Below are positions 458 through 11,636 of a DNA stretch of 64,000 nucleotides, piece after piece. The position numbers and the translations under genes are program-made. The notes under the pieces were generated by a model. The model saw nothing but the letters and a program-made list of their open reading frames with translations, was not told the origin of the DNA and made no database searches. The stretch is from Armatimonadota bacterium. Lineage in GTDB: Bacteria; Sysuimicrobiota; Sysuimicrobiia; Sysuimicrobiales; Kaftiobacteriaceae. Within the stretch, counting starts at the first letter, position 1; each line of letters begins with the position of its first letter. The stretch is taken from the NCBI GenBank assembly GCA_031081675.1, contig JAVHLZ010000003.1:1-64000 (forward strand). Reading direction: 5' to 3'.

Positions 458-868
458 TCAGGCCCGGGCCAGGGCGCGGTGGACGGTCATCATGCACGCC
501 CCCACCACCGCCTCCAGGCCGGCGGCGCGGGCGCGGGCGGCGGCCTCCTCATTCTCGGCCCCGGGCTGCATCCACACCACCTTGGCCCCGACGGCGACGG
601 CGTCGTCCACCACAGCCGGCACCTCCGAGGGGCGCCGGAAGATCAGCACCACGTCCACCGGCTCCGACACGTCCCGCAGGCCGGGATAGGCTCGCTCTCC
701 CAGCACCTCGGTCACGGTGGGGTTGACGGGGATGATCCGGTACCCGGCGTCCTTGAGGTAACTGGCCACCTCGTAACTGGGGCGGTCGGGTTTGTTGGAC
801 AGGCCCACCACCGCGATGGTGCGGGTGGAACGGAGGATCCGCAGCAGGGCCTCCGGCGAATGCGCCAC
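458..868 (-). CDS. CoA-binding domain protein (YccU type)
   Basis: A 136-residue single-domain protein of the CoA-binding Rossmann family. It shows the nucleotide-binding turn IAVVGLSNKPDRPSYEVA near the N-terminus, the second strand YRIIPVNPT, and the C-terminal signature KVVWMQPGAENEEAAARARA ending in VVGACMM, all typical of stand-alone YccU-like proteins of about 140 residues. GTG at 868 is chosen because a GGGAGG ribosome site lies just upstream and the fold begins soon after; a longer frame to 970 has non-conserved sequence. The selenoprotein glutaredoxin gene ends 16 bp upstream on the same strand, so the two are probably cotranscribed. The cellular role of the family is not settled. 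Confidence 0.85.
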   Translation of the reverse strand: MAHSPEALLRILRSTRTIAVVGLSNKPDRPSYEVASYLKDAGYRIIPVNPTVTEVLGERAYPGLRDVSEPVDVVLIFRRPSEVPAVVDDAVAVGAKVVWMQPGAENEEAAARARAAGLEAVVGACMMTVHRALARA

Positions 869-884
869 GGCAGGCTCGCCTCCC

Positions 885-1118
885 TCACCGGCCCAGCAGG
901 TCTTCCAGCCGCGCCCGGTTAAAACCCACCACCGCCTCCCCGTCGATGAGGGTGACGGGGGTGGCCGCAAAGCCTTTTCCCATCAGCTCGTCCAGGGCGG
1001 CCGGATCCCGGCTGATGTCCTTCTCGACGAACGGCACGCCTTTCTGGCGAAGGAACTCCTTCACCTTGCCGCAGAACAGTCAACCGGGCTGGGTGTAGAC
1101 GACCACCGTTCTGGCCAC
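885..1118 (-). CDS. Glutaredoxin-like selenoprotein (in-frame TGA at UxxC)
   Basis: Reading from GTG 1118 (GGAGGAGG site upstream) gives 77 residues of a glutaredoxin fold with one in-frame TGA at 1080-1082, codon 13. The context is VVVYTQPG-U-LFCGKVKEFL, so the TGA sits where thiol-redox homologues carry the first Cys of CxxC, giving UxxC. The rest of the frame is intact: the cis-Pro region AATPVTLIDGE and the closing helix RARLEDLLGR are both present. This is a redox protein that would use selenocysteine as nucleophile. A hairpin directly after the TGA (next entry) fits a bacterial SECIS. The alternative is a Cys-to-stop pseudogene, but the lack of other damage and the exact catalytic position argue for recoding. 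No selA, selB or selC is in this window. Confidence 0.75.
1042..1076 (-). promoter_or_regulatory. Candidate bacterial SECIS hairpin
   Basis: Immediately 3' of the TGA the message can fold as TTCT-(GC bulge)-GGC-AAGG, a 10-nt loop TGAAGGAGTT, then CCTT-(C bulge)-GCC-AGAA. That is 11 base pairs with two small bulges. The apical loop begins 16 nt after the TGA, within the known bacterial UGA-to-loop range, and has G at its second position. Bacterial SECIS elements lie inside the coding region just after the UGA, as here. The fold was drawn by eye, without an energy calculation. Confidence 0.55.
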
Positions 1119-1276
1119 GGTCCACCTCCTCCTCCCAGGATGACGTGTCCGGACCGCCGGCTATTCCGCCCGCGGCTCCACTGTAAGCCCGCTGACAGAC
1201 CGTGTGAAGCCGTTCAGAGATGGTGGAAGTGATTCCCCGCCCGTCGGCGGCGCCGCGGGGGAAAGGAGGAGAGTCC

Positions 1277-1633
1277 GTGCACCGGGTGGCCCTGATCGTC
1301 CTGGCCGGCACCGACACCCGCGGCGACCTGGGCCGCGTGGTGAACGCGCTCACGGCGGCCAGGGAGCTGCAGGACACCGGCGACGACGTGCGGATCATCT
1401 TTGACGGCGCCGGCACCCGCTGGATCGGCGAACTGACCTCCCCGGGACACCGGTACGGTCCTCTGTTTGCCGCCGTCCGCGACGCCGTGTACGGTGTCTG
1501 CCGCCACTGTGCGGCGGCCTACGGCGTCCAGGAAGCGGTCCAGGCGCAAGCCATCCCTCTGGTGGGAGACTACGACGGCCACCCCAGCCTGCGGAGGTTG
1601 CTGGCCGAGGGGTTCACAGTGATCACCTTCTGA
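1277..1633 (+). CDS. DsrE family protein
   Basis: A 118-residue cytoplasmic protein of the DsrE/DsrF-like fold. It starts with a beta strand RVALIVLAGTDT, followed by a helix (LGRVVNALTAARELQD), the strand DVRIIFDGAGTRW, a CRHC motif in YGVCRHCAAAYGV and the end GDYDGHPSLRRLLAEGFTVI. Some DsrE proteins carry sulfur on conserved cysteines; the CxxC here could take part in thiol chemistry, but that is inference. GTG 1277 is chosen because AAAGGAGGA lies seven bases upstream. It is transcribed divergently from the Sec-glutaredoxin gene, and the neighbourhood (glutaredoxin, thioredoxin remnant) suggests a small thiol/sulfur group. Confidence 0.8.
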   Translation: MHRVALIVLAGTDTRGDLGRVVNALTAARELQDTGDDVRIIFDGAGTRWIGELTSPGHRYGPLFAAVRDAVYGVCRHCAAAYGVQEAVQAQAIPLVGDYDGHPSLRRLLAEGFTVITF

Positions 1634-1735: not shown

Positions 1736-1873
1736 CATGAGATCATGGGGATGCCGACCACGGTCTTCATCGCCACCGACGGAACCATCGTGCGCCGCCG
1801 CACGGGACTGCTCACCCTGGCCCAGATGCGGTCGTTCACCGACGAACTGCTGAGCACGCCCCGAACCCCCTGA
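1736..1873 (+). pseudogene. Thioredoxin-fold C-terminal remnant
   Basis: This frame encodes HEIMGMPTTVFIATDGTIV and then RRTGLLTLAQMRSFTDELL before a TGA. It matches the C-terminal half of TlpA/thioredoxin-like proteins: the cis-Pro strand (MPTTVFI), the DGT turn and the closing helix. The upstream sequence in this frame turns into Arg/Pro-rich translation with no CxxC domain and no good start, so the N-terminal half is missing. It is best read as the 3' remnant of a decayed thioredoxin-like gene. A frameshifted but functional gene cannot be excluded. Confidence 0.5.
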
Positions 1874-1963
1874 ACGGACCCTCCGCGCCCCACCCGCCCG
1901 CAGCCGTCGGCGTCCGCCGGAGGGACGGCGCTCCCGCGTCCTGCGCGCCTGGGGCCTTCCGGT

Positions 1964-3046: not shown

Positions 3047-3187
3047 GGCATCCCTCCAGCGCGGGACTGGGACTGTCCCTTACCATACCGGAATACCGTG
3101 CGGGAACGTGTAAGGAAGGTTACAGTGCCAGCCTGACCGGACGCCTTCGGGCGACGGACGTCCGATGCTGGCCCCCGCCCCGGAGGA

Positions 3188-4333
3188 CTACGGCCGGTAG
3201 ATGCGCGTCCGGGGCTTGAAGACCGCCCACGAGAACCAGAAGTGCTGGCCGTGCACCACCGGCGCCAGGCGCTGGCCCGCCAGGGGCCCCGCGGTGGCCG
3301 TTCCCAGCACAGTCCACGCGCTGCCCGTCTGGACATCGGTGATGCGGTCGCCGGTCAGACGGAAGGTCAGCGGCCGTCCCTGCAGGGTGCGCTCGAAGAC
3401 TCCGGCCGTGCCCACGTCCCGCGAATCGGCGATGCTGCTGCGGTCCAGCGCCGAGGTGACGCCCCGGCTGTAGAGGACCACAATGGGCCTGCCGCCGACC
3501 ACGTCGTTGACCACCGGTGTCTTCTCCAGCACGCTGAACGGGTAGGCGACGTCTTCTCCGCCCAGCGATACGGTGACCACGCGCGCCATCGGCGGCAGGC
3601 GGTCGTCCCGGGGGCCGGTGTAGAGGAAAGGAGAGGAGGCGATGTCATCGTAGCCCAGGTACGGGTTGACGCCGTACGACCGGGTATGGCCGGTCTGGCG
3701 GTTGAGGACCCGCCCCCGGGGGTGGGCCGTGCGGAACATCTCCCAGGAGACGATCATGGAGGGCAGGAAGGTCAGCGTCTGCCCGGTGAGCTCCCCGACG
3801 ATGGCCTCCCCGGTGGCCTGCTGCCACCAGGACTCGGTCTGGCGGTCATACATCACCAGGTCCGAAAAGCGCAGCCTGCCGGTGGTCCCGAAATCCAGCA
3901 CCCGCCCGGCCACGCGCCGGTCGAAGACGATGGACGTGTTGCACAGGGGGCAAAAGGTGACCACCGCCGGCCGCCCGCCCACCACGTCGTTGACGATCTC
4001 GTGCCAGATGAGGATCTGCAAAGGGTAGGCCCGCACATCGCCGCCGTGCTGGAACAGGATGACCGGCTCCCGGGGCTTCAGCCACCGGTCGGCCTGGGCC
4101 ACGGTGTCGAACTGGGGGCGGTCGATGGCGGGAATGCCGTCTTTGGGCGGTCCGCCCGAGATGATCTCGCCCAGGGGCACGCTGTGCCTGGTGAAGTCCG
4201 TCTTCCACTCGGCGGTGTCAAACGGCACCCGTTCCCCCGACGGCGCGGTGCGGGCGACGCGGCCCACCTGTACCCACGCCACCGACCCGGCCAGGACCGC
4301 CACCACGGCTCCCACACCGACGGCCACCCTCAT
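3188..4333 (-). CDS. DUF3179 domain protein, secreted or membrane-anchored
   Basis: 381 residues with an N-terminal uncleaved or signal-type helix (MRVAVGVGAVVAVLAGSVAW). The body is typical of DUF3179: PREPVILFQHGGDVRAYPLQ, IVNDVVGGRPAVVTFCPLCN with a CPLC motif, then FGTTGRLRFSDLVMYDRQTE and SWWQQATGEAIVGELTG. The phrase VNDVVGGRP is found twice (near residues 112 and 276), indicating an internal duplication. The biochemical function of DUF3179 is unknown; the CxxC-like site could bind metal or be redox active. No stem-loop or operon partner is obvious except the Tat protein downstream. Confidence 0.85.
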   Translation of the reverse strand: MRVAVGVGAVVAVLAGSVAWVQVGRVARTAPSGERVPFDTAEWKTDFTRHSVPLGEIISGGPPKDGIPAIDRPQFDTVAQADRWLKPREPVILFQHGGDVRAYPLQILIWHEIVNDVVGGRPAVVTFCPLCNTSIVFDRRVAGRVLDFGTTGRLRFSDLVMYDRQTESWWQQATGEAIVGELTGQTLTFLPSMIVSWEMFRTAHPRGRVLNRQTGHTRSYGVNPYLGYDDIASSPFLYTGPRDDRLPPMARVVTVSLGGEDVAYPFSVLEKTPVVNDVVGGRPIVVLYSRGVTSALDRSSIADSRDVGTAGVFERTLQGRPLTFRLTGDRITDVQTGSAWTVLGTATAGPLAGQRLAPVVHGQHFWFSWAVFKPRTRIYRP

Positions 4334-11458: not shown

Positions 11459-11636
11459 CTGTCCCCACAAGGACGCGGGGACTGTCCCCACCCCCTGCTG
11501 GGGACAGTCCCCATAACGCGGCAGGTGGAGTACAGCGGCCCGCGAGTGGAGACAGACGCCGCTGCGTGGAGGAGGAGGAGGACTGTCCCCCGACCAGTTG
11601 GGGGACTGTCCCCGGGTCAGGTCGGGGACTGTCCCC
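11453..11636. repeat. Second GGGGAC(A/T)GTCCCC palindrome array
   Basis: Copies are centred near 11460, 11483, 11506, 11585, 11607 and 11630, with degenerate units near 11532 and 11554. Most spacings are 22-26 bp, as in the array at 242-449. It separates the convergent genes pucG and allB and runs into both: the pucG stop is inside the first copy, and the last allB codons are made from the final copy. Units are palindromic, so the array could form hairpins in both transcripts. Confidence 0.85.

Follow-up and report, generated by a model that had tools for sequence, protein, structure and literature searches.

The question raised by this locus is whether a TGA codon lying within a short glutaredoxin gene of an uncultured CSP1-3 bacterium ends translation or is read as selenocysteine (Sec). 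The gene belongs to a stretch of 64,000 nucleotides, here called the window, and an earlier reading of the sequence alone had described it, with no strand given, as a 77-codon glutaredoxin gene with a good ribosome site and one in-frame stop at the catalytic Cys (UxxC). Our analysis places the gene on the minus strand and agrees with that description (Table 1). The sole internal stop of the frame is the TGA, which takes the place of the catalytic first Cys of the glutaredoxin CxxC motif, the product scores 54.1 bits (E=1.8e-14) with the Pfam family Glutaredoxin (PF00462), for which the cut-off is 22.9, and the ribosome site was recovered as an AGGAGG motif. Translated with the TGA as Sec, the gene reads VARTVVVYTQPGULFCGKVKEFLRQKGVPFVEKDISRDPAALDELMGKGFAATPVTLIDGEAVVGFNRARLEDLLGR, followed by a TGA stop. 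The start codon in the orthologues is mostly ATG at the position of the GTG, and since this holds for the nearest relatives (about 80% identical to the window glutaredoxin), the GTG start is supported. Taken with the evidence given below, we consider it almost certain that the gene encodes a Sec-containing UxxC glutaredoxin/NrdH-like oxidoreductase, the UGA being decoded via tRNA-Sec, SelB, a bacterial SECIS (bSECIS) hairpin and SelA/SelD.

Table 1. Coordinates of the features at the glutaredoxin locus of the window
Feature	Position	Strand	Details or basis
Predicted glutaredoxin selenoprotein gene	885..1118	minus	77 residues; GTG start 1118-1116; TGA stop 887-885
In-frame TGA, codon 13, predicted to be read as Sec, first residue of U-L-F-C	1080..1082	minus	translation and homologues
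AGGAGG ribosome-binding site	1125..1130	minus	6 nt 5' of the GTG; sequence
Predicted bacterial SECIS hairpin	1046..1065	minus	8 bp; loop AGUU at 1057-1054, 22 nt past the UGA
CoA-binding-domain protein gene	461..868	minus	PF13380, E=2.7e-43; begins 16 nt past the glutaredoxin stop

The source genome (2.29 Mb in 50 contigs, 97.8% complete) contains all four components of the Sec machinery that the sequence-only reading had named as worth looking for; the absence of such machinery, which would have refuted a selenoprotein, can be dismissed. Profile searches found selA (569.6 bits) and, adjoining it on contig C5, selB (370.7 bits), both above cut-off, and the tRNA-Sec gene (selC; 77.8 bits against a cut-off of 47) is located on the same contig, 0.8 kb from selB, its anticodon being given as TCA by ARAGORN. 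The fourth component, selD (384.7 bits), itself holds a single in-frame TGA. At this locus (L015; contig C2, 79352-80272), the sequence past the TGA folds into a stable hairpin whose loop, UGA, lies about 17 nt on; a second gene of the genome therefore appears to use Sec, and SelD is probably a selenoprotein as well. A search with the formate dehydrogenase model returned only matches below cut-off and without stops, and so revealed no additional Sec protein.

A scan of 84,980 species genomes yielded 58 relatives of the window glutaredoxin, in which the position of codon 13 is occupied by TGA in 45, by TGC or TGT in 13, and by TAA or TAG in none. The placement of the TGA, which had been taken as meaningful from the sequence, is thus not due to chance, and an alignment of homologues for Cys or Sec at this codon, as had been proposed, finds both. 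The TGA forms come from MAGs labelled as CSP1-3/Armatimonadetes, from Chloroflexota, Acidobacteriota, Methylomirabilota and Nitrospirota, from Binatota and other MAGs labelled as Deltaproteobacteria, and from Zixiibacteriota, Planctomycetota and Bacillota. That eight or more phyla keep the TGA at one codon while the frame is otherwise open argues against the view that the TGA is a true stop in a decaying glutaredoxin gene, as do the lack of TAA and TAG at the codon and the presence of a hairpin with a compensatory change (see below). Frame-breaking changes in TGA-bearing relatives, which the sequence-only reading had named as a ground for refutation, were seen in only two cases, one carrying the TGA and a frameshift (L071) and the other being a shortened second TGA copy (L097); these stand against dozens of intact frames, and a pseudogene is accordingly very unlikely. 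A selenium-free product, made by misreading of UGA as Trp or Cys or by a change of the code, would leave the frame just as open. However, TGA is an ordinary stop in this genome (it terminates the glutaredoxin gene itself), the full Sec machinery is present, a bSECIS-like hairpin follows the UGA, and the relatives without TGA have Cys and not Trp at the codon, which makes this explanation extremely improbable. A sequencing or assembly error turning TGC or TGT into TGA might be suspected because the genome is fragmentary and its relatives are mostly MAGs, but the same TGA recurs in dozens of independent assemblies, including those of the named strains Alkaliphilus serpentinus LacT and Acidaminobacter sp. 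JC074, and we regard the probability of such an error as negligible.

Within the window's own phylum, a glutaredoxin match was found in 18 of 43 genomes, with exactly one TGA in 20 of the 22 matches. A selA gene above cut-off is present in 33 of these 43 genomes as against 18 with the glutaredoxin, and the correlation between the two is uninformative; the lack of selA goes mostly with incomplete assembly. Four genomes have a TGA-glutaredoxin and no full-length selA match (G012, G013, G019 and G031), three of them being only 68-77% complete and G019 93%. In G019, pieces of selB and the tRNA-Sec gene lie together at the start of a contig, and the absence of selA is explained by assembly gaps; the same explanation probably applies to G013, in which tRNA-Sec was found, and less surely to G012 and G031, in which the glutaredoxin is only distantly related. 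A tree built from 75 columns requires six changes between Cys and Sec and leaves many forks unresolved; the history of the clade may include a single origin. Plasmid records contained distant relatives only. In three Chloroflexota loci (L029, L031 and L033), two tandem TGA-glutaredoxin genes were seen just after the main match, the second with the motif QPT-U-xDC.

The sequence-only reading had described an 11-bp hairpin with its loop 16 nt from the TGA, whereas folding of the 45 nt past the UGA gives a different dominant structure, GGUGAAGG-AGUU-CCUUCGCC, with a helix that begins 14 nt past the TGA, has an energy of -13.3 kcal/mol taken alone and a pair probability of 0.99. The 11-bp hairpin is a minor, competing fold: it is less stable by about 4 kcal/mol, and its pair probabilities stay under 0.001 in the upper stem and reach up to 0.03 at the base. 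According to the published bSECIS model, the loop has 3-9 nt with a G in its first two bases, mostly followed by G or U, the stem has 4-16 bp, the distance from the UGA is 16-37 nt and the MFE is <= -7.5 (PMC13188914). The dominant hairpin, compared with this model as a check of the kind that had been called for, lies within all of these limits (4 nt, AGUU, 8 bp, 22 nt and -13.3 kcal/mol). Judged from the single stretch, the folding energy is unremarkable, both on dinucleotide shuffling (z=-0.43) and in comparison with synonymous recoding (z=-1.75, p=0.05), and a scan of the window with Rfam found nothing at gathering scores. As single-sequence folding is not significant, we turned to comparative counts, and it is these that speak for the hairpin.

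The distance from the UGA to the loop is 22-23 nt in nearly all of 51 distinct homologues, and relative to random synonymous recoding the z values of these 51 genes average -1.2 and are negative in 90%. Among the CSP1-3 genes, 94.9% of cells pair and three pairs have changed on both sides; the covariation score is higher than in any of 500 shuffles, which ignore kinship, and than in any slid register. The helix is likewise supported in the other phyla (96.2% of cells pair), where it is shifted by one base and has the loop GUU. Since the shuffles ignore kinship and the set was chosen for its TGA, these statistics are to be read as support and not as probabilities. Moreover, the hairpin follows in part from the conserved peptide KEFL, so that only synonymous and swapped positions give independent support. 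The clearest signs of covariation are at the level of codons, partly at synonymous sites: Val GTG mostly goes with Ser TCA or TCG and Glu GAG with Ser TCT, while the Leu codon is CTT in 14 of 14 CSP1-3 genes having Lys AAG opposite and CTC in 3 of 3 having GAG opposite, CTT making up 14 of the 281 Leu codons (5%) in ten window genes. Through this coupling of peptide changes to synonymous codon changes, nature itself provides a clean test of the model for bacterial SECIS elements.

From what is observed, namely the sequence, the family, the machinery, the conservation of the TGA and the covariation of the hairpin, we infer how Sec would be inserted and what the reductant and substrate of the glutaredoxin might be. 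The bSECIS hairpin would recruit SelB, and the tRNA-Sec (selC) that SelB carries would decode the UGA at codon 13, with SelA and SelD supplying Sec for the making of Sec-tRNA; the route through SelB, hairpin and UGA is established knowledge for bacteria (summarized in PMC13188914). In the predicted catalytic cycle, the selenolate would attack a substrate disulfide and Cys16 would resolve the intermediate, the oxidised Se-S bond then being reduced, most probably, by thioredoxin reductase, as in NrdH-redoxins. Because no match to glutathione synthetase (GshB, PF02955) was found in the 97.8%-complete source genome and a thioredoxin reductase (402.7 bits) is present, the latter appears to be a likelier reductant than glutathione.

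The gene had been proposed as a probable new selenoprotein; the second half of this proposal is borne out by the machinery, the Cys/Sec homologues and the bSECIS, whereas "new" holds for the gene in this genome only and not for its family. This is not a new selenoprotein family, as UxxC Sec-glutaredoxins are already known: ten sequences were reported in 2005 from a Sargasso Sea survey (PMC1088965), a 2026 catalogue lists an experimentally verified Grx selenoprotein with the motif UxxC (WP_010943784.1; PMC13188914), and Grx1 of Clostridium (Alkaliphilus) oremlandii, which has been studied structurally, is described as a native selenoprotein and is proposed to be the reductant of MsrA (PMC7642778). 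The window gene resembles the Grx selenoprotein family (PF00462) in its glutaredoxin domain, in a predicted Sec that replaces the first Cys of CxxC and in a predicted bSECIS just downstream, its own active site being ULFC. It is also like C. oremlandii Grx1 in size, family and Sec at the catalytic position, whereas Grx1 has U(C)PxC and belongs to another phylum, and the window gene adjoins a CoA-binding protein gene. The best sequence match in the PDB is 7c10, "Glutaredoxin" (E=9.7e-19), which we take to be this Grx1.

The UXX-star selenoproteins are glutaredoxin-like too and have Sec in the same place, but the window gene scores below the cut-offs of all three models (52.4 bits against 66 for NF041212, 44.3 against 100 for NF041211 and 23.9 against 72 for NF041114). 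Its closest NCBIfam models, those of YruB and NrdH, are likewise matched only below their cut-offs, the similarity in sequence amounting to 67.1 bits (cut-off 88.55) for YruB-like TIGR02196 and 57.3 bits (cut-off 85.75) for NrdH-redoxin TIGR02194, and the gene is therefore filed only as a Sec-glutaredoxin. To our knowledge, the described members of the NrdH-redoxin and YruB-like families have Cys instead of Sec. The word Armatimonad- is absent from the 2026 catalogue and review, so that this lineage does not seem to be named there for Sec-glutaredoxin (PMC13188914). What is novel is modest: such genes form a large clade that spans CSP1-3 and seven or more further phyla, with a CoA-binding-protein gene as neighbor in CSP1-3. 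A well-supported selenoprotein is added to an uncultured lineage, and a glutaredoxin subfamily is seen to stay with Sec over many phyla, in short genes that standard gene callers, halting at UGA, are likely to miss.

The pair of glutaredoxin and CoA-binding protein genes is kept in most CSP1-3 loci and was not seen in the other phyla; the two genes probably form one operon. It is conceivable, though rather unlikely, that the CSP1-3-type gene is a member of a separate, widespread subfamily of Sec-glutaredoxins (ULFC, UMFC, UGAC, UPPC), mostly retained in the Sec form, which works independently of glutathione and acts in a pathway connected with the neighboring CoA-binding protein, such as CoA-thiol redox.

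Other features of the window may be mentioned. Divergent from the glutaredoxin gene, 1220-1633 (plus strand) encodes a DsrE/DsrF-like protein that falls slightly short of the Pfam cut-off and has a CxxC motif (VCRHC). A short open piece at 1740-1874 (plus strand; MGMPTTVFIATDGTIVRRRTG...) resembles the C terminus of a thioredoxin/TlpA-like protein, lacks the active site and is possibly a relic. The product of 3188-4333 (minus strand) looks DUF3179-like by eye and has Cys here (PLCNTS); Sec forms of the DUF3179-like family have been catalogued (PMC13188914). Finally, palindromic GGGGAC(A/T)GTCCCC repeats cluster at 243-449 and 11478-11635 with a spacing of 23-25 nt, one further copy lying at 3069, and the exact motif GGGACWGTCCC was observed 11 times as against 0.13 expected by chance.
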